Assembly: GCA_016839055.1 (NCBI GenBank)
Contig: JAEKNX010000009.1
Coordinates: 62,001-126,000, forward strand
Direction of reading: 5' to 3'
Length of the DNA: 64,000 nt
DNA from: Spirochaetales bacterium
GTDB lineage: Bacteria; Spirochaetota; Spirochaetia; UBA9216
Shown in pieces: positions 30,974-50,334 of the stretch (position 1 is its first letter; each line of letters opens with the position of its first letter). The position numbers were made by a program, and so were the translations under genes. The notes below the pieces were generated by a model, which was not told the DNA's origin, did not search any database, and worked only from the letters and a program-made list of their open reading frames with translations.

Positions 30974-32233
30974 TTATTTATTTCTTCCATTGAAAATTTC
31001 CAATGCCCCAAAGGCTGCCATAATGTTCTCCGGCGGAACATCTGAGAGGATGTTATGAATTGAGTTGAAGACATATCCTCCTCCGGGTGCAAAAACCTCG
31101 AGACGGGAGAGTACATCGCGCCTGACTTCATCGGGAGTACCGTTGTTTAGTATCTCACGGGGATCAGCGCCTCCTCCCCAGAAGACGAGATCATCACCGA
31201 ATTCCGCCTTAAGCCTCTCGGGCTGCATATCCCGGCAGTTTGTCTGAACCGGATTTATTATTTCAATGCCCTCATCTATAAGAGACGGAAGATACTGGTA
31301 TACCGAACCGCAGGTATGAAGAAAGGTATGCATGGAGCTGTTCTCATGAACAAAGCTGCAGAGCCGGCTGCGGTGTTCATGGAAGAGCTCTCGGTAGATA
31401 TCGAGTCCCATAAAGGGTCCTGAGTCCATCCCAAGGTCATCACCGAAGCGGATGATATCTACACTATCTCCAACGGCCGCACAAACGTTTTCAAGAGTTT
31501 TCATATGTCGCTCCATCAGAATTTCCAGGAGCATTGCGACATTTTTTTTGTCAATATAGAGATCCATCAGAAAATTATCCATCCGACGGAGAAATGTTCC
31601 CCACTCAAATAAATTACAACCGCAGACAATAAGGAGGGCCTTATCGCTCTCATCCCGCAGTACTTTTGTCTTCACCTTAAGAGTATTCCAGAAATCAGGC
31701 TCACCGACTCTGTCCCAGGGAGAATGGGCAAGATTCTGCCAGAGGACCTTATCCATGGCCTCATCGATGGCCTCTTCCATTGCTGAGCGGCTATCCGGAT
31801 ATCCATCCTTCCACGGGAAAAATGTCTGATCGAAGAATCCCGCGCCCTCGGGCATGCTGGCAATAAGTTCGCCATCCCGGTGAAAAACATCGAACTGGCC
31901 TCTCTTTCCCTGTACGGGCCTGAACCAGGAAGGATAATAGCCTTCTTTTCCTCCCCTCATGGTAATCGGGTACCAATCGTCATCGCCGCCGCGAAAAGCC
32001 TGGGCAATATCGATGACATCGACTCCCAGTCTTTCCATTACCGCGGCCTCCGGCAGAGCAAGCTGCTGAACAACATCATAAATCATGGCCTTGCCGTCAA
32101 TCCCGAGATAATCAATAAGGTTTTTATAGGCTAGGGCAGATATCCCCGAGCTCGGAGTAGCCCCGAGATCTACAGGAAGCCTGTCGGGCTGCCTGTGATT
32201 AATAGCCGAGAGTACTCTTTCTCTTGAGTTCAT
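30974..32233 (-). CDS. URO-D-family methyltransferase-like protein (1)
   Basis: A 419-residue protein of the uroporphyrinogen decarboxylase superfamily. Start NSRERVLSAINHRQPDRLPVD is the usual opening of the non-haem branch, and FLHTCGSVYQYLPSLIDEGI carries the HxC motif that binds zinc in MtaA/MtbA-type methyl-corrinoid methyltransferases. It also has DDLGMDSGPFMGLDIYRELF, the equivalent of the active-site segment. A role in haem synthesis is unlikely: the sequence differs and four such genes occur here beside sugar transport genes. Methyl transfer to tetrahydrofolate or coenzyme M from a corrinoid protein is the best guess. Last gene of the ABC operon, 28 bases after the next URO-D gene. 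Confidence 0.8.
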   Translation of the reverse strand: MNSRERVLSAINHRQPDRLPVDLGATPSSGISALAYKNLIDYLGIDGKAMIYDVVQQLALPEAAVMERLGVDVIDIAQAFRGGDDDWYPITMRGGKEGYYPSWFRPVQGKRGQFDVFHRDGELIASMPEGAGFFDQTFFPWKDGYPDSRSAMEEAIDEAMDKVLWQNLAHSPWDRVGEPDFWNTLKVKTKVLRDESDKALLIVCGCNLFEWGTFLRRMDNFLMDLYIDKKNVAMLLEILMERHMKTLENVCAAVGDSVDIIRFGDDLGMDSGPFMGLDIYRELFHEHRSRLCSFVHENSSMHTFLHTCGSVYQYLPSLIDEGIEIINPVQTNCRDMQPERLKAEFGDDLVFWGGGADPREILNNGTPDEVRRDVLSRLEVFAPGGGYVFNSIHNILSDVPPENIMAAFGALEIFNGRNK

Positions 32234-32261: not shown

Positions 32262-33437
32262 TCATGAACCCTTCATGTCCGGAATATCCCACGCGCCCAG
32301 CTCAAGGGGATAATTTCCATATTCTTTCATAAGATTAACTACAAACTCATATCTCTCGGCGCTTACATTGCTCGGAACGGAATGGTCTGACTGGACTATA
32401 TACCCCCCCCCTTTAGCTGCGTTAAGCTTGGTAAGAACCTCCGCCTTCAGCTCATCAAGAGGAGCGTTTGCCCAGTTTAGTGAATCGATATTCCCGCAGA
32501 AACCCATCTTATGCCCATACTGTTTTCTTATATCGACAACATTGAGGCCTGATTTGGCTTCAAGCGGATTATACGCGTCCAGACCAATCTCGATAAAATC
32601 CGGGTAGAGTACCGATGCGTTTCCGCAGCCGTGATAGATTGCCGGAATATTCTTCGAATGGCAGTAATCTATAATAGCCTTCACGCCGGGTTTTAAATGC
32701 TGACGCCAAAACTCGGGAGAAAAAAGCATTCCGTTTACGTAAGCTACATCGCCCCAGATGACCATACCATCGAGCATGCCTCCGGCGGCCTCGATCTGGG
32801 CTTTAACCAGTTCAAGGTTAAACTCATTAACCCGCTTTAAAAACTTACCGAGTTCTTCAGGATAGAGCCCCATCCACATCATCATGTTCTCAGAACCAAT
32901 AATGCGCCAGCCTTCCTCATGTCCCTCACATACCGAACCATATACGGGAAAATCAGGATGCAAAGATTTTACGGTATCTATCCAGGGCGGAGTATTTCGG
33001 GTGATAATCTCCGACACGCCGGCTATCTGGTTGTCCCCGCCCTTGAAAAATCTCCGCTCATCCCAGGGGTCGTCGAACTGAAAAGCAATCATTTTATCAA
33101 TTGTATCGGTCTCAAAATGCTCAAAATACGGCATCTGACTTCCATCCCGATGACGAATAAGAGCTTCAAATCCGGTCCGCACAAGCATATCCCCGTCATT
33201 ATCTGATATTATTTCGAAATTCTTGATATGAGGATCCATATTAGGAGTTGTTACTATCCAGTCGAGATCATAGTGATAATAAGGACTCGCGTCTTTCGAA
33301 AGCCCTAACTCTTCCTGCCACCTCTTGATGAAGGTCAGCCAGAAAAAGTCACTGAACGGAACCCTGTCAGGTTCTTGATGCGCGAGTGCTGTGTTCATAC
33401 GTTTCAGTTTTTTTAAACAGTTTTCGGTCCTAGTCAT
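32262..33437 (-). CDS. URO-D-family methyltransferase-like protein (2)
   Basis: A 391-residue relative of the previous protein but clearly divergent. It has NTALAHQEPDRVPFSDFFW at the start and IYHGCGNASVLYPDFIEIGL with HxC. Later, KMGFCGNIDS supplies a third cysteine at the place where MtaA-type enzymes have their second zinc thiolate, making this the most methyltransferase-like of the four. GGAG lies 9 bases before the ATG. It is preceded by a 32-base palindrome that separates it from the binding-protein gene, so its level may be set separately from the transporter. Confidence 0.8.
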   Translation of the reverse strand: MTRTENCLKKLKRMNTALAHQEPDRVPFSDFFWLTFIKRWQEELGLSKDASPYYHYDLDWIVTTPNMDPHIKNFEIISDNDGDMLVRTGFEALIRHRDGSQMPYFEHFETDTIDKMIAFQFDDPWDERRFFKGGDNQIAGVSEIITRNTPPWIDTVKSLHPDFPVYGSVCEGHEEGWRIIGSENMMMWMGLYPEELGKFLKRVNEFNLELVKAQIEAAGGMLDGMVIWGDVAYVNGMLFSPEFWRQHLKPGVKAIIDYCHSKNIPAIYHGCGNASVLYPDFIEIGLDAYNPLEAKSGLNVVDIRKQYGHKMGFCGNIDSLNWANAPLDELKAEVLTKLNAAKGGGYIVQSDHSVPSNVSAERYEFVVNLMKEYGNYPLELGAWDIPDMKGS

Positions 33438-33537: not shown

Positions 33538-34734
33538 TTACCACTGAGGAGGGTAAAAATCTTCCACATCGTCAATAGTTATCATGTGCTGAGGAAGGTT
33601 TCTGATAGGCTCAATTTCCTTGCCGTTAAACCAGTCTGCCGCTGTCTTTACCGCAAGAGCGCCGTCGCCTTCAGCAGTCTGATATGTAATTGCATGAAGT
33701 TTGCCTTCTCGTACCAGGTCCATTCCGACCTTGCTGTTACCAGCGGCTATTACAACAACGTCTTCACGGCCGGCTTTCTTGAGTGCCTCAAAGATTCCGA
33801 GTGACTGGGCAGAGTCGTCTGCAGCGCAGATACCCTTAAGGTCATCTCCGAAACGGGTAAGCCAGTCGGATACGAGCTGCATTGTCTTATCTGCCTCAAA
33901 GCCCGGAGCCTGCATATCGAGAACCTTGATTCCAGGTGCGTACTGAGCCAACTCGGAGACAGGACCGAAACAGCGTGCGAAATACGGTGATCCGCCGGGT
34001 GCATGCTGAACATAGGCAACTCCGCCTTTTCCGCCCAGCTCATCCGCCCAGAGTCTTGCGAGTTTCCTGAACTGACCGAAGTCATCAGGGCCAGTCCATG
34101 TAATTGCATAATCCATCGCTGCCGCATCTGGAAGAGTATTGAAAAGTATTAAAGGAACACCGGCTTTGTTTATTTTTCTTGCCTGCTGGGGAGCTGTTTT
34201 TGCATCAAGCGGGATAAGAAGAATCATGTCAGGGTTTTCATTAATTGCCTGATCGATCATCTGGTTCTGAACCGCGAGATCCCAGTTAGGCGACTGAATT
34301 TTGAGGTCCATTCCGTATACGCCGGCTACTTTCTGAGCGCCGTTTGTACAGGCGGTTGTCCAGGGATGGTCGCCGTGAACTATCATTATAACTTTCTTAC
34401 CAATAGCTCCGTCCGCCGGAGACTCGGGTATATTTGTTTTATTAGTAATTTCACCCGCGAATTCCATGTCCCACCAGTGAAGGGGGTCTGTTTCAGGCAG
34501 AGCCGAGGGATCAGCCGGTCGTGCAGGTACTTTACGGACAGTGCCGCCGATTTTTATGAGCGCCTGGCCGTCAGCAGCCTTCAGATTCATAACTTCTGTT
34601 TCCAGAGCGAGTGATGCTCCAAGGTTTGATGTTGTAGCTTCTTTTTCAACAACCTTTGCTTCCTCTTTCTTACATCCGGTAAATACCACAGCAAAAACTG
34701 CAAGGATCATTAAGAAAATAAGACCTTTTTTCAT
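33538..34734 (-). CDS. ABC importer sugar-binding lipoprotein (RbsB-like, Peripla_BP_4)
   Basis: A 398-residue lipoprotein with signal peptide and lipobox VVFTGCKKEE. After a ~70-residue N-terminal extension comes a type I periplasmic-binding fold (GKKVIMIVHGDHPWTTAC; NENPDMILLIPLDAKTAP; TWTGPDDFGQFRKLARLW; GICAADDSAQSLGIFEALK). It captures the operon's sugar-like substrate. The same fold, including the extension's last part, is duplicated as the sensor domain of the AraC-type regulator at 42.6 kb. Transcribed after the second permease; strong hairpin downstream. Confidence 0.9.
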   Translation of the reverse strand: MKKGLIFLMILAVFAVVFTGCKKEEAKVVEKEATTSNLGASLALETEVMNLKAADGQALIKIGGTVRKVPARPADPSALPETDPLHWWDMEFAGEITNKTNIPESPADGAIGKKVIMIVHGDHPWTTACTNGAQKVAGVYGMDLKIQSPNWDLAVQNQMIDQAINENPDMILLIPLDAKTAPQQARKINKAGVPLILFNTLPDAAAMDYAITWTGPDDFGQFRKLARLWADELGGKGGVAYVQHAPGGSPYFARCFGPVSELAQYAPGIKVLDMQAPGFEADKTMQLVSDWLTRFGDDLKGICAADDSAQSLGIFEALKKAGREDVVVIAAGNSKVGMDLVREGKLHAITYQTAEGDGALAVKTAADWFNGKEIEPIRNLPQHMITIDDVEDFYPPQW

Positions 34735-34767: not shown

Positions 34768-35799
34768 CTATGCCTGGTTTTGGACTTCAAGTTCTTTCAT
34801 CAGCTCAGGGCGCTGACCGATAACCTTCTCATGTTTATATGAAACGTAAGCTTCATAGAGCACAACTGATGCCAGGATTATTCCGGCTATAAATATTTTC
34901 ACCTCATTCCCCAATCCAAAGAGGATGATGCCGTTATAAAGCACGTCCAGCATCAGAATAGCGACGAATGTTTTAAATATTCCGCCCTTTCCTCCAGACA
35001 TTGCCGTTCCGCCGATTATTGCGGCTGAGATGACATACATAAGAGATGAGTTTCCCATATTCAAGGTTGCAGCCGCGGACTCCATCGCGAAGAGAACTCC
35101 GCCGATACCTGCCGTTACTCCCGACATTATGAAGGCGGCAATCGTGTACTTGTCGGTATCTATACCTGCAAGCCAGGCGGTTTGACGATTTCCGCCCACC
35201 ATATAGAAATTCCGCCCTATTCTCGTACGCTTCATGAAAATTGCCGAAGCGGCAATAAGCACCAGCGTGATAATAACCCTGGGAGTCACCAATGGGAAAA
35301 TCATTAATGCGAGCCAGTCTGAGACAGCAAATGCATCGGGAGTCGACAGACTTACCGAATTTCCCCCGGTAAATGTGTATATTGCCCCCTGAAGCGCGGT
35401 CATCATTCCCAGCGTTACTATGAAAGAGTTTATCTTCGCCTTGGCCACAAGCAGGCCGTTTATAAGACCTATAAGGCCGCCCGCTATTATCGCGACGGGG
35501 ATGCTCCCTCCAAAACCTATATATTCCTTCAAACCCAGCCCTATAATCGCTGTAAAGGTAATAATAGTCCCTATGGACAGGTCAAGCTGTCCGATAATCA
35601 GAATCACTGTAAATCCGATAGCGACAGTTGCGTTCATAGCCGATGTCCGCATTATAGTCGTCAGATTAAATACATTGAAAAATCTTGGAGCAAATAATGC
35701 CATAAACAGAAAGACTATTGTAAAGAGAATAAAAATCCTGTTTCTGTCTATCGCTACTAAAAGTGATTTTTTACTATTCGGTTTATTAAGCATCGTCAC
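34768..35799 (-). CDS. ABC importer permease (RbsC-like) 2
   Basis: A 343-residue membrane protein of the BPD_transp_2 family with 8-10 segments. It has FTVILIIGQLDLSIGTIITF, the usual S-x-G pattern after the third segment, GRNFYMVGGNRQTAWLAGI as the ATPase-contact loop, and IGGTAMSGGKGG near the end. It pairs with the other permease to form a heterodimer. Its start overlaps the first permease stop by 14 bases. Confidence 0.9.
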   Translation of the reverse strand: MTMLNKPNSKKSLLVAIDRNRIFILFTIVFLFMALFAPRFFNVFNLTTIMRTSAMNATVAIGFTVILIIGQLDLSIGTIITFTAIIGLGLKEYIGFGGSIPVAIIAGGLIGLINGLLVAKAKINSFIVTLGMMTALQGAIYTFTGGNSVSLSTPDAFAVSDWLALMIFPLVTPRVIITLVLIAASAIFMKRTRIGRNFYMVGGNRQTAWLAGIDTDKYTIAAFIMSGVTAGIGGVLFAMESAAATLNMGNSSLMYVISAAIIGGTAMSGGKGGIFKTFVAILMLDVLYNGIILFGLGNEVKIFIAGIILASVVLYEAYVSYKHEKVIGQRPELMKELEVQNQA

Positions 35800-36850
35800 G
35801 CCCCAGAGTTCTTAATGATTTAGCATTGATCCCGACGACAACAATAAAAATTATGCCTCGAATCATATCTTGTGAAAATGTGCCCACACCGAGGAGTGTC
35901 ATGATGTTATTCATCAGACCGATAATGAGAACACCGCCGAGGACTCCTATAATAGAACCGCGTCCGCCGGCGAGGGTCATTCCGCCGATAACGATGGCCG
36001 TTACAGCCTTGAAGTCATAACCTGCGCCATTATAGTAGGCTCCTACCCTCGACAGAGATGTAACTGTAAGACCGCCAAGGGTGGCAGTAAGAGCGCAGAT
36101 TACAAAGCTCAAGCCGATTACCCTTTCAACATTGACGCCCGAGAACTCAGAGGCTTTCCGCGCAGCCCCGGTTATCTTCAGCTGCTGACCGAATTTCGTC
36201 TTTTTCATGATAAAATTCAGCAGGATAACCAGAATTATCATATAAACCACCGGCAAGCCAATCTTGTTAAAAAACCTGAACCGGTAAATATTGTCAAACA
36301 CATCACTTGCCCACTGGGATTTGGCTATCATGTCCGGGTAAATCTGCTTATTCACCCAGACAAGCCTGATAACTCCGAGGGTCACGTAATTGACCGCCAA
36401 TGTCCAGATAATGGGATTAGCCTTAAACTTTCCAATTGCAACAGCATTTATTAAACCTATAAGAAGTCCTGCTGCAACAGCCGCCGCAATGGCCGGAAAG
36501 AAACCATACTGGAGCATCTGTACCGCAATTATACCGGTTAACGCCATTGTGGTAGGAACCGACATATCAGCATAATGTCCTGAATAGGTTACAAAGGCCA
36601 TTCCGACTGCAACTATTCCCAGCATTGAGACAGCATCAACAATATTCAGCATATTTTGTGCGGTAAGGAAATTATTTATTACACCGAGGGCCTGAAGAAT
36701 TATACCGGCAACAAGAAACAGAGCAGCAACCGCGTAGATTCCGGCGCCATGAAAAATTTTCCCCAATATATTATAATTCGTTGTCCGGATATCATCTCCG
36801 GGACTATTCTGCTGTTTTTTTTCCAACACTTCCGTTCCTTCCATCAGCAA
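35786..36850 (-). CDS. ABC importer permease (RbsC-like) 1
   Basis: A 354-residue permease of the same family as its neighbour. The signature blocks are VTYSGHYADMSVPTTMALTG in place of the usual DLSVG motif, KITGAARKASEFSGVN as the coupling loop and IGGMTLAGGRGSIIG. The first block is unusual: the standard G-x-D-L-S stretch reads SGHYADMSV. It overlaps the ATPase gene by 7 bases and the second permease by 14. Confidence 0.9.
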   Translation of the reverse strand: MLMEGTEVLEKKQQNSPGDDIRTTNYNILGKIFHGAGIYAVAALFLVAGIILQALGVINNFLTAQNMLNIVDAVSMLGIVAVGMAFVTYSGHYADMSVPTTMALTGIIAVQMLQYGFFPAIAAAVAAGLLIGLINAVAIGKFKANPIIWTLAVNYVTLGVIRLVWVNKQIYPDMIAKSQWASDVFDNIYRFRFFNKIGLPVVYMIILVILLNFIMKKTKFGQQLKITGAARKASEFSGVNVERVIGLSFVICALTATLGGLTVTSLSRVGAYYNGAGYDFKAVTAIVIGGMTLAGGRGSIIGVLGGVLIIGLMNNIMTLLGVGTFSQDMIRGIIFIVVVGINAKSLRTLGRDDA

Positions 36851-38358
36851 ATCCCCTCTCCGTTTGCAGCCAGAAGTACACTTTCTTCGCTGCAGCCGCT
36901 ATGTTCCATTTCATGAATAAGATGCCCCTGCCTCATAATGAGAACCCTGTTTGAGAGAGAAACAAGTTCGGGAAGATCTGAAGATATCAGGATAATTGTA
37001 CTTCCGTTCTTTGCCAGCTGCTCGATCGATTCATGAATCGTCATCTTTGCACCAATATCAACACCGCGGGTCGGCTCGTCCAGAATAAGAACCTTTGGAT
37101 CGCAGGCCATCCATTTTGCCAGAAGAACCTTCTGCTGATTTCCACCGGAGAGGTTGCCTACTATGCGCTCCGGATCAGGCGGATAGATTGACAACTCATC
37201 AATCAGTTCATTCATTTTAGGAAAGCCGTCGGCTTCATGGTAAACTCCTCTATAAACGAGTTCGGGAATAATACCAGCTAGAATATTCTCTTTGACATTA
37301 AGACGCAGGGCCAAACCTTCGGTTTTCCGGTTTTCAGTCAGATATGCTATCCCCTCCTTGAGGGCATGCGCCATATTCTTCGGCTTTATTTCCTTGTCAT
37401 CCAGGAAAACTCTGCCTCCATTTCTATCATCAAGTCCGACAAGGACCCTCGCGAGCTCACTTCTTCCGGCGCCGGATAATCCGCATATTCCGAGAACTTC
37501 ACCCTTGTATGCTTCAAATGATACATTATGAAAAAATCCGTATCGGCTTAGATTTTCTACTCTTAATCTCTGCTCAGACTGAGCATGACTTTCATGATGA
37601 TAAAAATCCTTAACAGTCTGACCGACCATCATCTGTACGAGCTCCTCGCTTGTAACACTACCGATATCCCGCGTATCAATCTTTTTACCATCTCTCATTA
37701 CCGTAACCCTGTCGGCTATTTCAAAAATTTCCGGCAGGTGATGTGAAATATAGATGATTGCAAGTCCGCGTTTTTTCAGACTTCTTATAATCTCAAAAAG
37801 CCTTTCAACCTCTTCACGCGAGAGGGCCGATGTTGGTTCATCCATTACCAGGATACACGGATTATTCCCGAGTGCCTTACCTATTTCAACAAGCTGACTC
37901 TCGTGCTGGCTAATCTCTTCTATTTCAATATCCGGATCCAGATGTTCCATGCCGACCATCTTCAGACAGCGCTTTGTTTCCTTGTAGATCTTCTCTTTGT
38001 CAAGAAAAATGCCCTTTTTTGGGAGTCTGCCGACAAGTACATTCTCAGAGATACTCAAAGGGAGAGCAAGACTGAGTTCCTGATAAATCATTTCAATTCC
38101 ATTTTTTTTGGAATGAACCGGGCTGTGAAGTTCGGTCTCCCTGGAACCTATGAAAATCTTTCCGGTATAATCATTAAAAGATCCGGCTATAATTTTCATT
38201 AAAGTTGATTTACCCGCACCGTTCTCTCCAATAAGAGCATGAACCTCGCCTGCCCTTACGTCGAAATCAACATTATCGACTGCAAGAGTTCCTGGAAATC
38301 TCTTGCTTACTCCCTGCATACTGAGGGCGATACCTATATCATTACTATTCACCTGCAA
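36844..38358 (-). CDS. ABC importer ATPase with two nucleotide-binding domains (RbsA/MglA-like)
   Basis: A 504-residue protein. Domain 1: Walker A GENGAGKSTLMKI, signature region ISQHESQLVEIGKAL, Walker B CILVMDEPTSALS. Domain 2: degenerate Walker A GLSGAGRSELARVLVG, signature LSGGNQQKVLLAKWM, Walker B VLILDEPTRGVD. This asymmetric layout is standard for sugar importers of the CUT2 class. First ABC gene of the leftward operon, 126 bases after the mutarotase gene. Confidence 0.94.
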   Translation of the reverse strand: MQVNSNDIGIALSMQGVSKRFPGTLAVDNVDFDVRAGEVHALIGENGAGKSTLMKIIAGSFNDYTGKIFIGSRETELHSPVHSKKNGIEMIYQELSLALPLSISENVLVGRLPKKGIFLDKEKIYKETKRCLKMVGMEHLDPDIEIEEISQHESQLVEIGKALGNNPCILVMDEPTSALSREEVERLFEIIRSLKKRGLAIIYISHHLPEIFEIADRVTVMRDGKKIDTRDIGSVTSEELVQMMVGQTVKDFYHHESHAQSEQRLRVENLSRYGFFHNVSFEAYKGEVLGICGLSGAGRSELARVLVGLDDRNGGRVFLDDKEIKPKNMAHALKEGIAYLTENRKTEGLALRLNVKENILAGIIPELVYRGVYHEADGFPKMNELIDELSIYPPDPERIVGNLSGGNQQKVLLAKWMACDPKVLILDEPTRGVDIGAKMTIHESIEQLAKNGSTIILISSDLPELVSLSNRVLIMRQGHLIHEMEHSGCSEESVLLAANGEGIC

Positions 38359-38484: not shown

Positions 38485-38808
38485 TCAATCGAGATGATAA
38501 ACTTCCTCCATATCCGACCACCACTCGCCTTCGGCTCTATTCTCAAGCGGCTGCTGCATGGGTTTCATTATTGCCCACCACTGTTGAGTCTTCGGGTCAT
38601 CCGCCATTTTTTTCATATCAGCGTCAAAATCATCACCCACATACTCAAAATAGGCAAAAAGCAGCCCGTCCCTATAAAAAATCGAGTAATTTTGTATGTT
38701 ACATTCAGAAATTTTCTTGTTTATTTCCAGCCAGACTTCAGAGTGATACTTTTTATAGCTATCAAGATATTCCTTTTTAACTCCAATCAACTGCCCAAAT
38801 CTTTTCAT
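38485..38808 (-). CDS. L-rhamnose mutarotase-like protein (RhaM/DUF718 family)
   Basis: A 107-residue single-domain protein. RFGQLIGVKKEYLDSYKKYH with the active-site His in YHSEVW, IFYRDGLLFAYFEYVG and TQQWWAIMKPMQQPLE match the RhaM/DUF718 fold, which interconverts the anomers of L-rhamnose and in relatives L-fucose. It suggests the imported molecule is or contains a 6-deoxyhexose. First gene of the ABC/URO-D unit, with its own promoter and repeat elements upstream. No rhamnose isomerase, kinase or aldolase genes are near. Confidence 0.88.
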   Translation of the reverse strand: MKRFGQLIGVKKEYLDSYKKYHSEVWLEINKKISECNIQNYSIFYRDGLLFAYFEYVGDDFDADMKKMADDPKTQQWWAIMKPMQQPLENRAEGEWWSDMEEVYHLD

Positions 38809-39041: not shown

Positions 39042-39069
39042 ATTGCTAAACTTATTAATGGGAATGCTA

Positions 39070-40101
39070 ATGAAACCTAAACTTCGTGATGTAGCCGAAC
39101 TGGCGGGAGTATCAATTACAGCAGCCTCAATGGCCTTATCTGAAACCGGAAGAATATCTGACGAAACCCGGACTAAGGTGTTGACGGCCGCGGCCGAGCT
39201 GGGATATCAACGTAAAATCAAATCAACTAAAATTACAGACTTCAATCATGTTGCGGTCCTTGTCAGCTGCGATTACGAATGGGCTTTTATCTGGAAATTT
39301 ATTCAGCCGCTGATTGAACAGATCGAAGTTGAACTGAAAACAGTGGATCTCAACCTGATTATGATTCCAATATCACACAAGTCTACACCGGATGAAATAT
39401 TCAATAAAATAAAATCATCTTCCGCCGGCGCGGTTATTTCGCTGCATTTTGGAAATGACAAACTTTTTATCAGACTCGAAGAAAACGGCATTCCTGTAAT
39501 TGTTGTAATGAAATCCGATTTCCATGACCGCTTCTACTCGGTATGTGTTGATGATTTTCAAGGCGCATATGAGGCAGGCTGTCATCTAATCAAACTCGGG
39601 CATAAAAAAATTGCCTACGTAGGAATAGAGCGGCCCGATCTGCCCGCGCTTTCAAATGACAGATTTATCGGATTCAAGAAGGCAATGGATGTAAACCATC
39701 TCGACCTGCCTCCGGAGTATGTTTTTGAATTTGAGGCCGGACATATGGAGAAACTCAAACGGGATATCTATCCGGTATTTAATACAGGCTCGGAGAAACG
39801 GCCTACCGCTGTCTTCTGCCTTGATGATGATCTCGCCCAGCGGTTCATGCTGGCTCTGAAGGATTTAACACTTTCTATCCCCGGGGACGTCTCAATAATT
39901 GCCCCGGGTGATGTTCTTGATTACAATATGCCCTATATTCGGCCTATAACTACAATGCAGATAAACACGACCTACATGGGAAAGATCGTCTCTCAGATGC
40001 TTATTAACAGACTCGAAAATACGCCGGACATTCAGCATGGACTGAAGGTTCAGCAGCATCTGGTCGAACGCGGCAGCTGCAGGGTAATGAATCAGGAATA
40101 G
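39070..40101 (+). CDS. LacI-family regulator (1)
   Basis: A 343-residue repressor. HTH: LRDVAELAGVSITAASMALSE, where the usual TVSR is replaced by ITAASMAL, then the hinge region GYQRKIKSTKITD. The effector domain is a type I binding fold with ICVDDFQGAYEAGCHLI-type text (SVCVDDFQGAYEAGCHLIKL) and DDDLAQRFMLALKD. ATG 39070 is the natural start; the frame extends to 39043. Divergent from the RhaM-ABC unit, which it may control. Its stop overlaps the convergent URO-D gene by 10 bases. Confidence 0.9.
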   Translation: MKPKLRDVAELAGVSITAASMALSETGRISDETRTKVLTAAAELGYQRKIKSTKITDFNHVAVLVSCDYEWAFIWKFIQPLIEQIEVELKTVDLNLIMIPISHKSTPDEIFNKIKSSSAGAVISLHFGNDKLFIRLEENGIPVIVVMKSDFHDRFYSVCVDDFQGAYEAGCHLIKLGHKKIAYVGIERPDLPALSNDRFIGFKKAMDVNHLDLPPEYVFEFEAGHMEKLKRDIYPVFNTGSEKRPTAVFCLDDDLAQRFMLALKDLTLSIPGDVSIIAPGDVLDYNMPYIRPITTMQINTTYMGKIVSQMLINRLENTPDIQHGLKVQQHLVERGSCRVMNQE

Positions 40102-41141
40102 ATCCCAAACTCCTCTATCGCGTCCATCATCGCCAAAACGTTTTCGAGCGGCGTCTCTTCCAGGATTGTATCGTGACTCGCGCCGCCGATATAGCGCCCT
40201 CCCGGCATCATGACCCTTAATATTTCACGAGTCTGCTCCTTCACCTTCCATGGACCCTCCCCGTTAATCAGGATGTGATGTGAATCGATTGCCCCGTTAA
40301 GCACAATCTTTTCCCCGAAATCGCGTTTCAAACCGGCAGGCTCCATTCCAGCTGCGTCCGGCTGTAGCGCATGAAGAGCATCCATCCCGGCACTTATCAA
40401 ATCGGGAATAAACTCCCTGTAACCGCCGCAGCAGTGCAGCATAACCTTCAGCCCGTAATCATGGCCAAGATCAATCAGCCGTTTGAGAGGAGGCAGAATA
40501 AACTCACGGAACATTTCCACGCCCATCAGCGGACCTGTCTGTCCTCCGAGATCATTACCGATAAAAAAAATATCAATCAAATCAGAGGCTTCATCAAAGA
40601 CCTTGACTGAGCTCTCTATATAAAAATCCGTTATCTTTTTAAAGATAAGTTTAACAACCTCAGGATGGTCGTACATCTTGAAGTAGAGCTCCTCGTGCCC
40701 CGCGAGATCAATAGCGTCGTGCCAGAAGGGGGACCATTCCCCTCCAAGGATTGAAAATTCTCCCTTATAGGCTTCAGCCTGCCTCCGGAGCGTGGAAACA
40801 TCAAGCAGGTGGGGATCAGGCCAGAGGTAGTCCTCTACTTCGGTTACAGTTGCTGCATCCTTCAGGGGGTGGCTCATCGGCATACCGTAACCAATCCCCC
40901 GCCTCTGAACTCCGAAGGGGCTGCAGTAGGTTGCCTCCGGAAGAAGCTCTGTTTCCGGCTGCGGATAGTTCGCCGAGACCCTCCTGAAGTCGTCGCCCAT
41001 TCGCCTCCTGAGTGCCTCATCATCGAGTCCAAGCTCATTTTTCGCCTTATTCCAGAATTCCTCGCTGGCTCCGCACCATCTTGGAACCCTGTCTGGAAGC
41101 TCTCCGGCGAAAACCGCAGCAACTCTTTCTTTCGACGTCAT
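40092..41141 (-). CDS. URO-D-family methyltransferase-like protein (3)
   Basis: A 349-residue protein. TSKERVAAVFAGELPDRVPR is the family opening, FIGNDLGGQTGPLMGVEMFR the active-site stretch and VMLHCCGGYREFIPDLISAG the HxC motif, here HCC. IVLNGAIDSHHILINGEGPW replaces the cysteine-containing strand of MtaA. AGGAGGGGG stands 5 bases before ATG 41141; the frame to 41231 is an extension over the upstream gene. 11 bases separate it from gene (4), so they form one unit. Confidence 0.8.
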   Translation of the reverse strand: MTSKERVAAVFAGELPDRVPRWCGASEEFWNKAKNELGLDDEALRRRMGDDFRRVSANYPQPETELLPEATYCSPFGVQRRGIGYGMPMSHPLKDAATVTEVEDYLWPDPHLLDVSTLRRQAEAYKGEFSILGGEWSPFWHDAIDLAGHEELYFKMYDHPEVVKLIFKKITDFYIESSVKVFDEASDLIDIFFIGNDLGGQTGPLMGVEMFREFILPPLKRLIDLGHDYGLKVMLHCCGGYREFIPDLISAGMDALHALQPDAAGMEPAGLKRDFGEKIVLNGAIDSHHILINGEGPWKVKEQTREILRVMMPGGRYIGGASHDTILEETPLENVLAMMDAIEEFGIYS

Positions 41142-41151
41142 ATTCCCCCTC

Positions 41152-42450
41152 CTAGTAGTCTTCCGCAATCCGTGATGCAATCTCCGACCATTCCCAAAGC
41201 CGCCGCGGCTGGTATCTGACAGTCGAAACATCCTTCATGATCAACTCAACATGGCACCTTCCTTCAGTCTTCTCAAGAAAATCCAGGATCTCCTCTTCTG
41301 CCCGTTTCGGATCCCAGCTGCTCTCGGCAAGAATGGCGGGGTTAGGTTTCCGGCTCATTACATAGTCCTGCCCCATATTCTCAACAGCACGCTCGGAATT
41401 ACACCAGGGGCTGACTGATATTTTTCGGAGGTTGGGCACATGCTTCAGCATATCAATCTTGCCGTCAAGGGGTTCACAGCAGCCGTAATAGGTTTTGCCC
41501 CATCGCTTCAGCCAGCGCAGATCATGCTCAACAGCGAATTCCCAATGCATCTCAGGCGACACACCGCTGAAGATCTGTGCGTTGGAGCACCCCCACATAT
41601 TATGCGGCTTCACATGGTTTTCGTCAAAATCATCACCCGGCAGGTCCGAGATGTAGCCGTAGCCGCCCGAGCCTATCCGCGTGTTGTTATTATCAAGCTC
41701 AAGAAGATTCTGCATGGTAAACTGATCGAGTTCGATCATCCATGCGTCTACCATCCTGTCGACGAAGGCATGAACCATCTCCGGCCGCATGGCAAGATCC
41801 ATCATTGCTTCCTGAACGCCCCACCATCTGATAAGAAAATCCCATGGAGTGTACCAGATATGGGACTGCCCGGTTTTCTTCACAGGGATGATACCGCTGA
41901 AAATATCCTTCATTGCTCCCATACTGAATTCGGTGGCTTTTTGAAAATGAGTAATCTTCGGCATCTGAATTTTTTCAAGATCATCCATACTATTTATCTG
42001 GATTTTAAAATGCCTGGAATAGATATCATTCTCAGAATCGGTTGTGGCAATATCCACTTCTTCCAAAATACCAAAATCAGTACTGTGAATAATCATCGGG
42101 CACTCAATAAAGGGGCTTACAATCATATCACCAGGCATATGTTTCCATTGGTAGATTGTTCTCCGAAGTTTCATCTCAAGATCTCTGGCCCAGGGATGCT
42201 GCGTTTTCAGCGTAAGCTCGTCATCTACGTCCATCTCGTGCCAGGGAATCTCGTTTATCCAGACCATTGGCCGCCTGGATTTTAAATCATTCAAATTCTT
42301 CCATAAGCCGGCCCTGTTCAGGTTAACCGGATCTGAAGATATTTCAGAAATCCGCCCCCCCAGCTTCCGCAGCACTTCTTTATCAGTATCCTTTAGAACA
42401 ATTTCCGCTTCAACAGGCGGCACCTCTCTATGACTGGGATCATGCAGCAT
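41152..42450 (-). CDS. URO-D-like protein (4), divergent
   Basis: A 432-residue protein of a distinct URO-D-related group. It lacks the standard opening, but MVHAFVDRMVDAWMIELDQF and KTYYGCCEPLDGKIDMLKHV occupy the positions of the methyltransferase core. The YGCCEPL motif replaces HxC. SPFIECPMIIHSTDFGI and PGDDFDENHVKPHNMWGCS are also notable. It probably shares a corrinoid- or methyl-handling role with its neighbours. AAGGAG lies 11 bases before the ATG. Preceded by a promoter with a TGTAA-N4-TTACA dyad. Confidence 0.7.
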   Translation of the reverse strand: MLHDPSHREVPPVEAEIVLKDTDKEVLRKLGGRISEISSDPVNLNRAGLWKNLNDLKSRRPMVWINEIPWHEMDVDDELTLKTQHPWARDLEMKLRRTIYQWKHMPGDMIVSPFIECPMIIHSTDFGILEEVDIATTDSENDIYSRHFKIQINSMDDLEKIQMPKITHFQKATEFSMGAMKDIFSGIIPVKKTGQSHIWYTPWDFLIRWWGVQEAMMDLAMRPEMVHAFVDRMVDAWMIELDQFTMQNLLELDNNNTRIGSGGYGYISDLPGDDFDENHVKPHNMWGCSNAQIFSGVSPEMHWEFAVEHDLRWLKRWGKTYYGCCEPLDGKIDMLKHVPNLRKISVSPWCNSERAVENMGQDYVMSRKPNPAILAESSWDPKRAEEEILDFLEKTEGRCHVELIMKDVSTVRYQPRRLWEWSEIASRIAEDY

Positions 42451-42584: not shown

Positions 42585-44270
42585 TCAGCTGTACTCTGAC
42601 GGATAGACTCCGGTATATTTTTTAAACGTGTTATAAAAATAATTCGCATCGGTATAACCCACAACCAGCGCAATCTGATTGGCTTTTAAACCGGAGCTCC
42701 GGATAAGCTTTTTGGCCTCGGTAATCCGGAGATTGTTCAGATACCTTGAAAAGTTTTCTCCTGCTTCATCCTTGAACAGCTTCCCCAAATAGGCGGGAGA
42801 GACATCAAACTGATAAGCAAGCACTTTAAGCGAAAGGGGGCTGGAATAATTACTGTCGACAAAATCGACAACCTGCTGAATGAGGGATTTCGGCCGGTTC
42901 ATCTCCGAGAGCAGGAACACTATCTCGACTGCAACGCTCTTCAGCCAGTCCAGAGTTTTTTCGATAGTTTTATATTGAAAAAGCTTTTTAAATATTGACT
43001 CATAGCCGCCTATAAGTTCTTTCACCGGCAGATTGTTCGTCTTAATTATATTAAGCAGATTTGAAAGAAGTTCTATGGTAAATCCCCTGAAATACTCCTC
43101 GCTGATAATCCGCTTCATAGTAAAACTATGATAGGTATCGGTAAAGAACCGGTCAATGCCGTCCCTGTTACATTCGAGAACCATCCTGTAAAGATAATCC
43201 AGATCAATATTTTCGGGTTCATCAAAATCGAGAAAAAACTCATCGACATTTCCCGCCGTAAGCAGCTGGACCGGAAGATATCTGAAAGGCTCAACCTGCA
43301 GACCGTTAAACCAGTCTATAGCCAGCTGAATTGCAAGAGCGCCGTCGAGCCTGGGCGACTGGTAGGTTATAGCCTGCAGTTTGTCCTCTTTGAGCATCCT
43401 CATTCCGACCTTGCTGCTTCCATTGGCAACCCTTATTATATCAGCACGTCCTGCTTCCTCCAGTGCCTGATTAATTCCCTGCTGAGCTATATTATCATCC
43501 GCACTCACGATCCCCTTCAGCTGGGAACCATGCTTCTCAAGCCAGTCTTTTACCATGAGATAGGTTCGATGTTTATCCAGGCCGGTTGACTCCACTTCAA
43601 GCAGCTTCATCCCGGGCGCATAATCACACAGTTCGGTTATGAGGCCCCATTTGCGGCCCATGAATGCAGAGGAGCCGGGAATGTGGCAAATAACAGCATA
43701 ACCGCCCTCGCCCTTCATCAAATCAGCAAAATGCCTCGCAAGCATCCTGAACTGCCCCCAATCGTCGGGCCCGGTCCAGGCCGTTATATATTTCAGAGCC
43801 TCATAATCGGGGATCAGATTACTTGCTATCACAGGAATTTTTTTTTCATTTAAGCGCCTGCAGCTCTCAACACTTTCGCAGGCACTCTCCGGAACGAGAA
43901 TCACGAGATCCGGTCTCTCACGAATAACCTCTTCCACCTGTTGTGCCTGCATCTCGATGTCCCAGCCGGAATACTTGAATGTCAATTCTATTCCGAACGG
44001 CTGGGCGGTAGCTTTCATGCCGGCCTCATATGCCCTATGGTAGGGGTGCTCCGGAAGAAGGCAGGCAACCTTCTTCCCTTTGGCCCCGTTCATTGGTGAG
44101 AGCGGAATATTATTTTTCCTCACTCCCCAGCCGGGAAACTCATAATCATACCAATGTCTTCTATCATTCTCCGGAAATGACTCCGGCGCTTCGGGTCTCC
44201 GGGGTATCTCTTTTGTTCGGCCGACCCACAGGACAGGTTTTCGCCCTTCTGAATAACTGAAAAAATCCAT
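42585..44270 (-). CDS. AraC-type regulator with an RbsB-like sensor domain
   Basis: A 561-residue cytoplasmic regulator without signal peptide. Residues ~10-350 are a type I sugar-binding fold that matches the importer's binding lipoprotein at 33.5 kb nearly throughout: both share HWxDxEFxG, TGPDDxGQFRxLAR, YAPGxKxL, SKVGM and AITYQ blocks. Residues ~350-455 are a helical linker; ~460-561 is a double helix-turn-helix AraC domain (LSLKVLAYQFDVSPAYLGKL, then IALVVGYTDANYFYNTFKKY). The likely role is activation of the URO-D/ABC genes when the imported ligand reaches the cytoplasm. No Shine-Dalgarno site precedes the ATG. Divergent from lacI (2). Confidence 0.88.
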   Translation of the reverse strand: MDFFSYSEGRKPVLWVGRTKEIPRRPEAPESFPENDRRHWYDYEFPGWGVRKNNIPLSPMNGAKGKKVACLLPEHPYHRAYEAGMKATAQPFGIELTFKYSGWDIEMQAQQVEEVIRERPDLVILVPESACESVESCRRLNEKKIPVIASNLIPDYEALKYITAWTGPDDWGQFRMLARHFADLMKGEGGYAVICHIPGSSAFMGRKWGLITELCDYAPGMKLLEVESTGLDKHRTYLMVKDWLEKHGSQLKGIVSADDNIAQQGINQALEEAGRADIIRVANGSSKVGMRMLKEDKLQAITYQSPRLDGALAIQLAIDWFNGLQVEPFRYLPVQLLTAGNVDEFFLDFDEPENIDLDYLYRMVLECNRDGIDRFFTDTYHSFTMKRIISEEYFRGFTIELLSNLLNIIKTNNLPVKELIGGYESIFKKLFQYKTIEKTLDWLKSVAVEIVFLLSEMNRPKSLIQQVVDFVDSNYSSPLSLKVLAYQFDVSPAYLGKLFKDEAGENFSRYLNNLRITEAKKLIRSSGLKANQIALVVGYTDANYFYNTFKKYTGVYPSEYS

Positions 44271-44315
44271 AATTTATAGTAGCATAAAATCCATTTCCCA
44301 CCAAACAGAATATCA

Positions 44316-44362
44316 TTGCAGAGCTTCCCCCGATGATGATATACTTTATGTAATCGATTACA
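44316..44362 (+). promoter_or_regulatory. promoter and operator of the second LacI gene
   Basis: TTGCAG (44316-44321), 18 bases, TATACT (44340-44345), then the perfect palindrome TGTAATCGATTACA at 44349-44362 over the expected transcription start. The same palindrome recurs before fucI. Indicates autorepression. Confidence 0.8.
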
Positions 44363-44389
44363 GCTATAGCTTAATCCGAAGGAGCCCCC

Positions 44390-45376
44390 ATGGCAATTAC
44401 AGTAAAAGATGTAGCTCTAAAGGCCGGAGTCTCGACCGCGACAGTCTCCCGGGTGCTCAACAATGATCCCGGAATAAAGCCTCAAACCCGGAAGAAGGTC
44501 AAAACCGCCATCCTTGATACCGGCTACAGAATGAATAAGGCGGCCAGAAGCCTGAAAACCTCCAGGACAGGAACAATAGGTCTTCTTGTTCCCGAGCTGG
44601 TTAACGATTTCTTCATGACTGTTGCCCAGGGGGTCGAGGATGAACTTCACAACAGCGGTTACGGGATGATAATCTGCAATGCGAATGAAAACAGAAGGGA
44701 TGAAGAAGACCGAATCAACCTCCTTATAGAACAATGTGTCGACGGGGTAATCATCATCCCGGCAAGCAGCGAAGGCAGACATTTCAATAAATTACGCAGA
44801 GCCGGCATTCCGGTAGTCATGGTGGACAGACTTGTCGAAGGCTTTGAAGCCGACGCAGTACTCGCGGATAATGTAAACGGCGCCTACTCTGCTGTTGCGC
44901 ATCTGATATCCTCCGGATGCAGAAGATTCGGTTTTATCGGCGGCAGCCTTGAGCTTTCAAACTTCAGTGAACGCTTTGAGGGCTTCAAACGCGCCTTAAC
45001 CGATTACAACATCCCAGTGGAAGAACCAATAATCAAATTCGGTGACGTCCATGTTGAATCCGGTTATGATCTGATGGAAGAACTGATGAATCAAGATAAT
45101 CCGCCGCAGAATATTTTCATAGCAAACTACTTCCTCCATGTAGGGGCGACTAAATACCTGCTCAACAACAGAGAAACAGCGTCGTCGGAAATTAGAATAG
45201 CCGGATTTGATGACATGGCCCTCTCCTCGATTCTCGGATTCTCCAGTGTCACCGTTTCACAGCCGATGCGTGAGATGGGCCGTAGGGCTGCCGCGCTCCT
45301 ACTCCGCAGAATAAACACCAAAACTCCCGCCCCCTGCCAGCTTATCAGATTGAAAACCAGCCTTGTAACTCACTAA
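44390..45376 (+). CDS. LacI-family regulator (2), likely repressor of fucI
   Basis: A 328-residue repressor. HTH: TVKDVALKAGVSTATVSRVL, then the hinge with MNKAARSLKTSRT. Effector domain of type I fold with VVMVDRLVEGFEADAVLADN and IAGFDDMALSSILGFSSVTV. AAGGAG precedes the ATG. The gene carries the TGTAATCGATTACA palindrome at its own promoter, and the same one stands before fucI 145 bases downstream, so it most likely represses both; L-fucose or a related metabolite would be the inducer. Confidence 0.93.
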   Translation: MAITVKDVALKAGVSTATVSRVLNNDPGIKPQTRKKVKTAILDTGYRMNKAARSLKTSRTGTIGLLVPELVNDFFMTVAQGVEDELHNSGYGMIICNANENRRDEEDRINLLIEQCVDGVIIIPASSEGRHFNKLRRAGIPVVMVDRLVEGFEADAVLADNVNGAYSAVAHLISSGCRRFGFIGGSLELSNFSERFEGFKRALTDYNIPVEEPIIKFGDVHVESGYDLMEELMNQDNPPQNIFIANYFLHVGATKYLLNNRETASSEIRIAGFDDMALSSILGFSSVTVSQPMREMGRRAAALLLRRINTKTPAPCQLIRLKTSLVTH

Positions 45377-45521: not shown

Positions 45522-47330
45522 ATGGCTAAGGAGATAGATATGGAATATACAAACAGACTCAGAGGCGAGATGCCGAAGATAGGAATCCGGCCGACAATTG
45601 ATGGAAGACGGAAGGGAGTCAGGGAGTCTCTCGAAGATCAAACCATGAATATGGCAAGGTCGGCAGCGAAACTTATAAGTGAGAATATGCGCCACCCCAA
45701 CGGAATGCCGGTTGAATGCGTGATAGCAGATACAACAATAGGCGGATTCGCGGAGGCGGCCGATTGCGCTGACAAGTTCAGGAAGGAAAACGTCAGAGTA
45801 TCGCTGACCGTTACACCATGCTGGTGCTACGGTTCAGAAACAATGGACATGGATCCGCTGATGCCAAAGGCAGTCTGGGGTTTTAACGGGACAGAACGTC
45901 CCGGAGCAGTCTATCTTGCAGCGGTTCTTGCCGCCCATGCCCAGAAAGGACTCCCCGCCTTCGGTATCTACGGCAGGGACGTCCAGGATTCAACCGACAC
46001 CTCAATCCATGAGGATGTTAAGGAGAAGATCCTCCGTTTTTCGAAGGCCGCCCTCGCCCTCGCCTACATGAAGGATAAGGCGTACCTTTCCATGGGTAAT
46101 GTTTCGATGGGAATCGCAGGTTCAATTGTAAATCAGGATTTCTTCCAGAAGTATCTTGGGATGAGAACCGAATGCGTTGACATGGTCGAATTCATAAGAC
46201 GTGTCGAAGAAGAAATATATGATGCGGATGAATACAAGCTGGCCCTCGAGTGGACTAAAAAAAACTGCAGGGAAGGCGCGGATAACAACGCGATAGATTC
46301 ACAGCGGACCCGGGAACAGAAGGACGGCGACTGGGAACTCTCGGTTAAGATGACCCTTATAGCCCGGGATCTCATGGTCGGCAACCCGAATCTTGAGAAA
46401 ATCGGTTACGGAGAGGAAGCCCTCGGCAGAAATGCCATCCTCTCAGGATTTCAGGGCCAGCGGCAATGGACCGACTTCAAGTGCAACGGCGACTTCATGG
46501 AAACCATGCTCAATACTTCCTTCGACTGGAACGGAACAAGAGAACCCTATCTCTGTGCAACCGAAAACGACGCATTAAACGGCGTTTCAATGCTCTTCGG
46601 CCATCTGGTTTCCGATACCGCGCAGATCTTCAGCGATGTGAGGACATACTGGAGCCCCGACGCAATAGAGAGGGTAACCGGCTGGAAGCCCGAAGGGCTA
46701 GCGAGCGACGGCCTCATTCATCTTATAAACTCAGGTTCTACCTGTCTGGACGGCAGCGGACAGCAGACCAATAAGGACGGGAAACCGATTATAAAGCCGT
46801 TCTGGGACATCACAGAGGATGAAGTAAAGAAATGCCTTAGCGCTACCCTCTTTCGCCCCGGTTCTACCGACTACTTCAGAGGCGGCGGCTGGTCTACCGA
46901 CTTCCTTACAAAAGGAGGAATGCCATGCACTATGAGCAGACTCAACCTCGTCGACGGCCTGGGTCCTGTCCTTCAGATTGCCGAAGGCTATACCGTGGAA
47001 ATCCCGGATGAAGTCCATAATACCCTCGACAGCAGGACCGACCCCACCTGGCCGACAACCTGGTTTGCACCGATAGTAGACGGAAAAGACGGACCCTTCA
47101 AGGACACATATTCGGTAATGGCCGCCTGGGGCGCTAACCACGGCGCGGTCAGCTACGGTCATATTGGGGCGGATCTCATCACCCTGGCCTCAATGCTTCG
47201 GATTCCGGTCTGCATGCATAATATTGCCGATGAGAAAATTTTCAGGCCGAGCAGCTGGAACGCCTTCGGGATGGACCGAGAGGGTGCCGACTACCGTGCG
47301 TGCACCGCGCTCGGACCAGTTTATAAGTAG
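45522..47330 (+). CDS. fucI: L-fucose isomerase
   Basis: A 602-residue ketol isomerase turning L-fucose into L-fuculose (and D-arabinose into D-ribulose) in the cytoplasm. It follows E. coli FucI almost from end to end: [50 protein letters not shown], the metal-site Glu in ATENDALNG, Asp in SDVRTYWSP and His in WGANHGAVS. Start 45522 has GAAGG nearby; 45540 (MEYTN) has a better AAGGAG and may be the real start. Stands alone behind the LacI operator; no fuculokinase gene is near, while a class II aldolase is at 61 kb. Confidence 0.96.
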
Positions 47331-48297: not shown

Positions 48298-50325
48298 ATG
48301 ACATTCGAATTACTCGGATTAAATCCCGAAATCCAGGAAGCGGTAGCGAAGAAAGGCTACATAAAAACAACACCTATTCAGGAGCAGGCTATCCCAGCCG
48401 TACTCAAAGGTAAGGACGTCCTCGGCGGCGCTCAGACAGGAACCGGGAAAACAGCAGCCTTCGCGCTGCCCATTCTGAACATACTCAGCGAAAAGAAGAG
48501 CAAGGGTAAAAATATAAGAGCCCTCGTCCTGACCCCTACAAGGGAACTGGCCGACCAGGTTGGAGAGAGTTTCAGGGATTACGGAAAATTCCTTGAATTG
48601 AAAACTACTAAGATTTACGGCGGTGTGACCATGAATCCACAGGTAACCGCCCTTAAGGATGGTACTGACATTGTCGTAGCCACTCCCGGCAGGCTGCTCG
48701 ATCATGTCGAACAGAAGACTATCGACCTTTCAAATGTAGAAATTCTTGTTCTTGATGAAGCAGACCGGATGCTCGACATGGGTTTCATTAAGGATATTAA
48801 GAAAATTGTCAAAACCCTTCCCAAAACAAGGCAGAATCTTCTTTTCTCGGCGACCTACGGAGGTGATATCAAAAGCCTCTCGGAGGAGATTCTTAAAGAT
48901 CCTGTCTACGTAGAGGTTTCAAAGAGAAACACTGCTGCCGAAAAGGTAGTGCAGATTATATACAATGTTGAGAAAAGTCAGAAACGTCACTTTCTCGCCC
49001 ATCTGATGAGAGAAGAATCCTGGTATCAGGTTCTTGTCTTCGTTAGAACAAAACACGGCGCAAACCGTCTGGCCAAGCAGTTTGAGAAGGAGGGCATTCC
49101 CTCCTCGGCCATTCACTCCGATAAAACTCAGGCAGCCAGAACCAAGGCTATGAAGGATTTCAAGAAGGGTAATCTTCAGGCATTAATTGCTACCGACGTC
49201 GCCGCAAGGGGAATAGATCTGAATGATCTGAGTCATGTAGTTAACTTCGAGCTTCCGCAGATTCCGGAGGATTACGTCCATAGAATCGGCCGTACCGGCA
49301 GGGCCGGAAAATCAGGAACCGCTATAACCCTCGTGGCCCCTGAGGACAGGAGTCAGCTGCAGAGAATAGAGAAGATCCTCAAGTATTCGATACCGTCAAA
49401 GCCGGTTAAAGGGTTCAAACCCGTTTACGAACCGAGGGATAACAATGACAAATCTGCAGGTAAAAGAGGCGGCACATCAGGCGGCAATGGTAAACCAAGA
49501 AACGGTAAACCGGCATACGAACCATGGAAGGAGTATGAAAAAGCTTCTGATAAAAAAACAACCGATCAAAAAGACAGCAGTAGACCCGGAGCAGGCAAAC
49601 CCAGATCAGGCAAACCTGCTTTCGAGCCAAGACAGTATAATGACAAGCTTTCTGATAAGAGGACAGCAGGTCCCTCAGGTAGCGGCAGGCCCGGAGCACG
49701 TAAACCCGAATCAGGTAAATCCGGATCAGGTAAACCTGCTTTCGAGCCAAGAAAGTATAATGACAAGCCTTCTGATAGGAGGACAACCGGTTACGGTGAC
49801 AGCGGCAAGCCCGGACGCGAGCCCGGAAAGTATAATGACAAACCTTCCGAAAAGCGGACAACCGGTTACGGTGACAGCGGCAAACCCGGAGCACGCAAAC
49901 CCGAATCAGGTAGATCCGGATCAGGTAAACCTGCTTTCGAGCCAAGAAAGTATAATGACAGGCCTTCTGATAAGCGGACAACAGGTTCTTCAGGTAGCGG
50001 CAGGCCCGGACGCGAGCCCGGAAAATATAATGACAAGCCTTCTGAAAAGAGAACAGCAGGTCCTTCAGGTAGCGGCAGGCCCGGACGCGAGCCCGGAAAA
50101 TATAATGACAAGCCTTCTGAAAAGAGAACAGCAGGTCCTTCAGGTAGCGGCAGGCCCGGACGCGAGCCCGGAAAATATAATGACAAGCCTTCTGATAAGA
50201 GGACAGCAGGTCCCTCAGATAGCAGCAGGCCCGGAGCACGCAAACCCGGAGCGGCTAAGGCTGGATCAGGCAAACCATTTGCCGGCAATACCCGCAAGTT
50301 CAGCCCGAAAAGACGCAACAAATAA
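48298..50325 (+). CDS. DEAD-box RNA helicase with repetitive disordered tail (RhlE-like)
   Basis: A 675-residue ATP-dependent RNA helicase. Motifs: Q motif TPIQEQAIP, I AQTGTGKTAAF, Ia PTRELADQV, Ib TPGRLLDH, II VLDEADRML, III FSATYGG, IV VFVRTK, V ATDVAARGID, VI HRIGRTGRAG. Residues 1-370 are the core. The tail (~380-675) is basic, low in hydrophobics, and made of about eight copies of a 25-residue unit (YNDKPSEKRTAGPSGSGR type). The tail should bind RNA loosely. The message has a ~180-base leader from the previous gene, as often in cold-induced helicases. AGGAG precedes the ATG. Confidence 0.94.
   Translation: MTFELLGLNPEIQEAVAKKGYIKTTPIQEQAIPAVLKGKDVLGGAQTGTGKTAAFALPILNILSEKKSKGKNIRALVLTPTRELADQVGESFRDYGKFLELKTTKIYGGVTMNPQVTALKDGTDIVVATPGRLLDHVEQKTIDLSNVEILVLDEADRMLDMGFIKDIKKIVKTLPKTRQNLLFSATYGGDIKSLSEEILKDPVYVEVSKRNTAAEKVVQIIYNVEKSQKRHFLAHLMREESWYQVLVFVRTKHGANRLAKQFEKEGIPSSAIHSDKTQAARTKAMKDFKKGNLQALIATDVAARGIDLNDLSHVVNFELPQIPEDYVHRIGRTGRAGKSGTAITLVAPEDRSQLQRIEKILKYSIPSKPVKGFKPVYEPRDNNDKSAGKRGGTSGGNGKPRNGKPAYEPWKEYEKASDKKTTDQKDSSRPGAGKPRSGKPAFEPRQYNDKLSDKRTAGPSGSGRPGARKPESGKSGSGKPAFEPRKYNDKPSDRRTTGYGDSGKPGREPGKYNDKPSEKRTTGYGDSGKPGARKPESGRSGSGKPAFEPRKYNDRPSDKRTTGSSGSGRPGREPGKYNDKPSEKRTAGPSGSGRPGREPGKYNDKPSEKRTAGPSGSGRPGREPGKYNDKPSDKRTAGPSDSSRPGARKPGAAKAGSGKPFAGNTRKFSPKRRNK
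49600..50245 (+). repeat. in-frame tandem repeats of 75 bp in the helicase tail
   Basis: Copies at 50011-50085 and 50086-50160 are identical base for base; a third at 50161-50235 differs at a few sites, and older diverged copies precede them. Unit is 25 codons, so copy number can change without frameshift. Two long open frames overlap here on other frames only because the repeats lack stops. Confidence 0.9.
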
Positions 50326-50334
50326 TACTTAAAA

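Follow-up and report, generated by a model that had tools for sequence, protein, structure and literature searches.

The window, by which we mean the whole stretch of 64,000 nucleotides that was analysed, contains a sugar import locus together with a gene for an AraC-type regulator with an N-terminal RbsB-like sensor. The locus includes a minus-strand series that consists of a RhaM-family gene, the importer ATPase, two permeases, the importer's binding protein (SBP) and two URO-D-type genes. The AraC gene is located directly upstream of the URO4/URO3 pair. The features are given below by coordinates and strand, with their evidence in brackets.

30974..32233 (-): URO1, URO-D superfamily (Pfam)
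32262..33437 (-): URO2, URO-D superfamily, distantly similar to MtaA (Pfam; PDB 4ay7, E 2e-5)
33538..34734 (-): RbsB-like lipoprotein SBP of the importer, with signal peptide, lipobox and extension (ORF, BLASTP, Pfam)
34768..35799 (-): sugar ABC importer permease 1 (ORF; place next to the SBP kept in relatives)
35786..36850 (-): sugar ABC importer permease 2 (ORF; kept in relatives)
36844..38358 (-): RbsA-like ATPase with two ABC domains (Pfam ABC_tran, two stretches)
38485..38808 (-): L-rhamnose mutarotase (RhaM) family protein (PF05336, E 5e-32; conserved in the locus)
39043..40101 (+): LacI-family regulator, divergent from the RhaM-importer operon (Pfam)
40092..41231 (-): URO3, URO-D superfamily (Pfam)
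41152..42450 (-): conserved protein labelled URO4, adjoining the regulator; putative URO-D (no Pfam match; Cys-containing motifs and setting)
42585..44270 (-): AraC-type regulator with N-terminal RbsB-like sensor, 561 aa (ORF, BLASTP, Pfam)
44079..44252 (-): extension at the N-terminus of the sensor (about residues 7-64), lacking in E. coli RbsB (alignments)
43233..44078 (-): PBP type I sensor core, about residues 65-346, Peripla_BP_4 (Pfam, E 2.9e-29)
42903..43202 (-): helical linker between sensor and HTH, about residues 357-456 (predicted helices)
42591..42821 (-): AraC DNA-binding domain, residues 484-560, HTH_18 (Pfam, E 1.3e-19)
44390..45376 (+): LacI-family regulator, divergent from the AraC regulator (Pfam)
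45522..47330 (+): L-fucose isomerase family protein (Pfam)

The RhaM gene (38485-38808) lies between the importer ATPase gene and a LacI gene; the opposite strand carries a larger ORF at this place, which is spurious. The repetitive 3' part of a DEAD-box helicase gene (49415-50332) likewise yields long ORFs in its other frames that are spurious. The genome to which the window belongs (G000) has a second RhaM gene, on contig C10, which also adjoins a URO-D gene, and contains 20 URO-D matches over the cut-off. A palindrome, TGTAATCGATTACA, which lies in 44271-44389, where the AraC gene and a LacI gene diverge, is kept in G004 and looks like a LacI-type operator. The only conserved block that the operator search returned is AAAATTTTAACAAAAAACTTGACA-like; in G000, G001 and G004 it precedes the RhaM-importer operon, and no regulator is assigned to it.

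The two halves of the regulator can be classified by their Pfam matches. HTH_18 (PF12833) scores 70.7 bits against a cut-off of 33.6 and covers positions 1-77 of the 80 in the model, as in the AraC/XylS family, whose members carry a double HTH of about 100 residues at the C-terminus, and Pfam also gives HTH_AraC. Peripla_BP_4, the type I sugar-binding model, matches residues 74-321 with 102.8 bits (cut-off 35.1). The linker resembles those of other AraC proteins in the same genome, and also that of an AraC protein in G262 whose gene adjoins one for a corrinoid protein. Orthologs of the regulator are found in G001 and G004 (71-74% identity) and in L036 (58%). The protein begins MDFFSYSEGRK..., and a TAA closes the frame two codons upstream of the ATG; because of this in-frame stop, the regulator has no signal peptide from its own frame. 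A hydrophobic N-terminus, as expected of exported transport SBPs, was looked for in the regulator and none was found. The earlier note, which had described the sensor as lacking a signal peptide, was correct on this point, and the regulator should be cytoplasmic.

Relation of the sensor to the importer lipoprotein

The N-terminal half of the regulator had been described as matching the RbsB-like lipoprotein of the importer, part of its unusual extension included, and our analysis bears this out. Residues 7-346 of the regulator align with residues 54-394 of the SBP with a single gap and 143 of 341 positions identical (42%; BLASTP, E 9e-106). In a search of the whole genome, the SBP (324 bits) is the second match after the regulator itself, while the other PBP-type matches reach about 41 bits or less, the next ones over 183 aa. 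A chance likeness of two RbsB-like proteins is ruled out by this ranking together with the common extension.

The extension comprises about 58 columns common to the SBP and the regulator, located ahead of residue 1 of mature E. coli RbsB and preceding its first strand, with the pattern P-RP..P...PE.D..HW(W/Y)D.E..G.........P.SP..GA.GKK. The SBP itself starts with a hydrophobic segment and lipobox (MKKGLIFLMILAVFAVVFTGC), and its outermost residues after the signal, about 30 in number (NLGASLALETEVMNL...), are missing from the regulator. In structure models built from shallow alignments of six sequences each, with mean pLDDT of 69 for the regulator and 71 for the SBP, the extension is not resolved in either protein, and no listed PDB structural match aligns over most of it. 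The nearest PDB matches of the SBP model are ribose-binding proteins and relatives (7e7m, 4yo7, 2ioy), and the regulator sensor model aligns with the ribose-binding protein 1ba2 over 252 residues at 3.3 A (VIA Z 23.8).

A family of sensors across the spirochaete class

With a profile built from 14 sensors (A1), we searched 395 spirochaete genomes of the class, of which 36 contained a match at E <= 1e-60. The large searches scored the top three to five candidates per genome, and the genomes are mostly drafts, so that absences, such as that of an SBP from a genome, are weak. The rows taken into the tree described below comprise 34 AraC fusions, 27 SBPs and seven proteins that carry the sensor at the C-terminus. 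An N-terminal hydrophobic segment is found in all 27 SBPs and is lacking in 32 of the 34 AraC fusions; the remaining two have one ahead of their likely start or right at it. The AraC sensors are far more varied than the SBPs (core identity 0.44 versus 0.70), and several genomes (G446, G457, G463, G487) contain one SBP and two or three AraC fusions. Viral contigs yielded no relatives, plasmids yielded just generic SBPs at less than 80% coverage, and one scan of genome contigs outside the spirochaetes gave only an HTH match, in Myroides.

In six of the seven proteins with a C-terminal sensor, a Pfam MCP signalling domain precedes the sensor, which again comprises the extension and the RbsB-like part: L053:5096-7972 (G003), L052:11314-14244 (G004), L091, L110, L114 and L115. 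In the seventh (L098), which contains two hydrophobic segments, no signalling domain was recognised. Five of the six MCP-type proteins have one or two such segments ahead of the signalling domain, and because of this order the C-terminal sensor should, from MCP topology, be cytoplasmic. A sensor of this kind at the C-terminus of chemoreceptors, presumably in the cytoplasm, is unusual and testable.

Regulator and importer genes share one locus in several genera. Within 10 kb of the AraC fusions, URO-D-type genes occur in 24 of 34 cases, the importer ATPase in 18, RhaM in 16 and the SBP in 15; at least one of the four is present in 25 of 34, and several of the others lie at contig ends. None of the seven MCP fusions is near any of these genes. 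AraC fusions without such an importer nearby occur in G356, G412 and G251, and there is one in G493. The fusions L092 (G412) and L057 (G356) have as neighbours a sulfatase and an ABC sugar system of another kind, with no RbsB-type importer. At two other loci, L109 (G457) and L113 (G463), a pair of AraC fusions flanks one importer/SBP/URO-D locus, which suggests split roles for the two regulators. As judged from the sequences, the pairing of regulator and importer is an ancient family trait common to many spirochaetes.

The same locus and the same unusual extension would be expected if the regulator had arisen by copying the binding protein of its own importer into an AraC regulator, and the earlier note had proposed that the regulator was built from the transporter's protein. 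In a maximum-likelihood tree of 71 rows, however, all the AraC sensors, from across the class, fall on one side of a branch (support 100/98) and all the SBPs likewise (98/100), each label changing once on the tree. Forcing the regulator and two orthologs together with the SBP and two orthologs costs 236 log-likelihood units, and the AU test rejects this arrangement (p = 2.8e-5). For most AraC sensors, that of the window included, the SBP encoded in their own genome is no better a match than one from some other genome. We therefore regard a copy of the importer's own protein as exceedingly unlikely; the tree and the AU test rule out that the SBP was duplicated locally to give the regulator. What stands of the proposal is common ancestry: by this phylogeny, the regulator sensor and the importer SBP are ancient paralogs kept side by side, with no recent copying. 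Since the root is uncertain, the outgroup being distant, and the MCP group forms no supported clade, it cannot be told which use arose first.

Pocket residues and proposed function

The ligand contacts of E. coli RbsB, at positions 9, 13, 15, 16, 89, 90, 141, 164, 190, 215 and 235, were carried over by alignment, and the residue letters were checked against the numbering. The window SBP and the regulator agree at six of these 11 contacts, namely His13, Asn89, Arg141, Asp190, Gly215 and Gln235 (RbsB numbering), and differ by W/Y, T/H, T/L, F/L and V/L, the first four at positions 15, 16, 90 and 164, respectively. The six residues are widely kept: at positions 13, 89, 141, 190, 215 and 235 they occur in 27/27, 26/27, 27/27, 25/25, 25/25 and 24/25 SBPs, and in 28/34, 34/34, 34/34, 33/34, 30/34 and 32/34 AraC fusions. 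E. coli RbsB instead has N13, D89, N190 and D215. Among the six other RbsB-like rows of the genome, N190 and D215 are each found in 5/6 and D89 in 4/5 of those aligned; these rows are mostly gapped at the early positions. Both window proteins thus display the defining features of the family, the extension and an RbsB core with H13/N89/R141/D190/G215/Q235.

Identity between SBPs and AraC sensors is 0.57 over the 11 contacts (p 0.027) and 0.71 over the eight polar contacts (p 0.0016), versus 0.38 over the core; the six-residue polar signature was named after the residue table had been viewed, and p = 0.0016 uses all eight polar contacts. The 11 contacts exceed the core in conservation among the AraC fusions (0.66 versus 0.44, p 0.006) but not in the MCP set (p 0.22), where the pocket is not clearly kept. 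The pocket data speak for a sugar pocket that is live and belongs to the same family, but fall short of proof that the ligand is the same. The sensor half might also have lost ligand binding and serve in pairing or as a scaffold of the regulator. Non-binding sensor domains have precedents in regulator families, and the AraC sensors have diverged fast; the higher conservation of the pocket within the AraC fusions and the presence of Asn89 and Arg141 in every one of them, however, make such a loss very unlikely.

The earlier note had called for a comparison of pocket residues, expecting the regulator to read the same ligand as the importer. The two proteins agree at the six polar positions and differ at the stacking positions 15, 16, 90 and 164, so the regulator may equally bind another anomer or a compound closely derived from the importer's ligand. 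In a rival scheme, the sensor would read a different internal ligand, such as a demethylated or isomerised product or another anomer, and would report catabolic flux rather than the imported compound. Apart from the stacking positions, the greater variation of the AraC sensors and the genomes with one SBP and two or three AraC fusions favour such a scheme, while the conserved hydrogen-bonding positions are identical in SBPs and AraC sensors. We consider it rather unlikely, though a serious contender.

The reading that we prefer, and hold to be likely, is that the protein is a cytoplasmic one-component AraC regulator that senses the sugar taken up, or a compound closely derived from it inside the cell, and activates genes for import and catabolism. 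The RbsB-like sensor would bind the sugar delivered by the neighbouring ABC importer, or its close derivative; clam-shell closing would be relayed through the helical linker to the AraC DNA-binding domain, which would then activate the import and catabolism genes of the locus, presumably from their promoters. The cell can probably sense in this way what has been taken up. Against this preferred reading stand the stacking positions, the AraC fusions that lie away from such an importer, the operator search, which identified no operator, the transfer of the contact positions from E. coli RbsB by alignment, and the two LacI regulators of the locus, which could serve instead.

The neighbouring genes allow a guess at the class of ligand. 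L-rhamnose isomerase and aldolase genes accompany the SBP in G251, where Pfam confirms RhaA, and the AraC fusion in G456; in the window, G004 and G407, the AraC fusion has a gene for L-fucose isomerase in its vicinity. Corrinoid O-, S- and halogen-demethylases are among the URO-D proteins (PMC10418091). From the RhaM, FucI/RhaA and URO-D neighbours, one may guess that the ligand is perhaps an O-methylated 6-deoxyhexose. The weak assignment of URO4 speaks against this guess, as does the B12-binding_2 domain, which occurs at four places in G000, none of them in the window locus. It is conceivable, although doubtful, that one ligand-binding module, extension included, serves outside the cell in the importer and inside it in the AraC regulator and at the C-terminus of chemoreceptors, each time for the same compound family, possibly methylated 6-deoxy sugars. 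If true, uptake, gene control and swimming would be tied to one chemistry in spirochaetes.

As far as databases and literature show, three features are apparently new, namely a family that spans the class and shares the extension of the SBP, its stable pairing with URO-D, RhaM and ABC genes, and the related use in chemoreceptors. In the literature, we found no description of an RbsB-like/AraC fusion and no paper joining rhamnose mutarotase and uroporphyrinogen decarboxylase. The importer receptor and the regulator sensor, paired across the class and with the same fold and pocket signature, offer a soluble protein for seeking the ligand of an uncharacterised importer/URO-D locus. In addition, a natural and stable joining of a transport receptor to an AraC HTH is useful to those who design biosensors, a field in which fusions of this kind are difficult to make.

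Comparison with known systems

XylR of E. coli (4fe4, 4fe7) contains a cytoplasmic N-terminal PBP-type sensor and a C-terminal AraC HTH, and controls sugar uptake and catabolism. The regulator described here has the same domain order, and its HTH matches that of XylR by sequence. With phmmer, 4fe4 and 4fe7 were matched through the HTH only (regulator residues 485-560), and the XylR sensor was not matched; XylR is also absent from the best 50 structural matches listed for the regulator model, an absence that does not exclude a likeness. XylR has 392 aa and the regulator 561 aa, with a longer linker and the SBP-specific extension, and the regulator sensor is clearly of transporter SBP lineage.

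Btr of Bacillus subtilis has an N-terminal HTH and a siderophore-type binding domain of another PBP class. The NCBIfam model for Btr (NF049932) gives the regulator 51 bits against a cut-off of 900, through the HTH only, which places it outside Btr as defined by that model. The likeness lies in the design, a one-component transporter regulator with a sensor like the importer's own binding protein; the Btr sensor resembles FeuA, the binding protein of the importer (PMC9609785, citing Gaballa and Helmann 2007). By these comparisons, the regulator may work like XylR or Btr, with membership shown for neither.

LacI/GalR regulators also carry a PBP-type ligand domain, which originated from sugar-binding PBPs (PMC6079105). 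They differ in having an N-terminal LacI HTH where the regulator has an AraC HTH, and the locus carries both kinds. A further likeness is to the hybrid two-component sensor BT1754 (2x7x), in which an RbsB-like sensor is coupled to transcription control. The BT1754 sensor is periplasmic and signals through a kinase, whereas the regulator of the present locus is a soluble, one-component protein.
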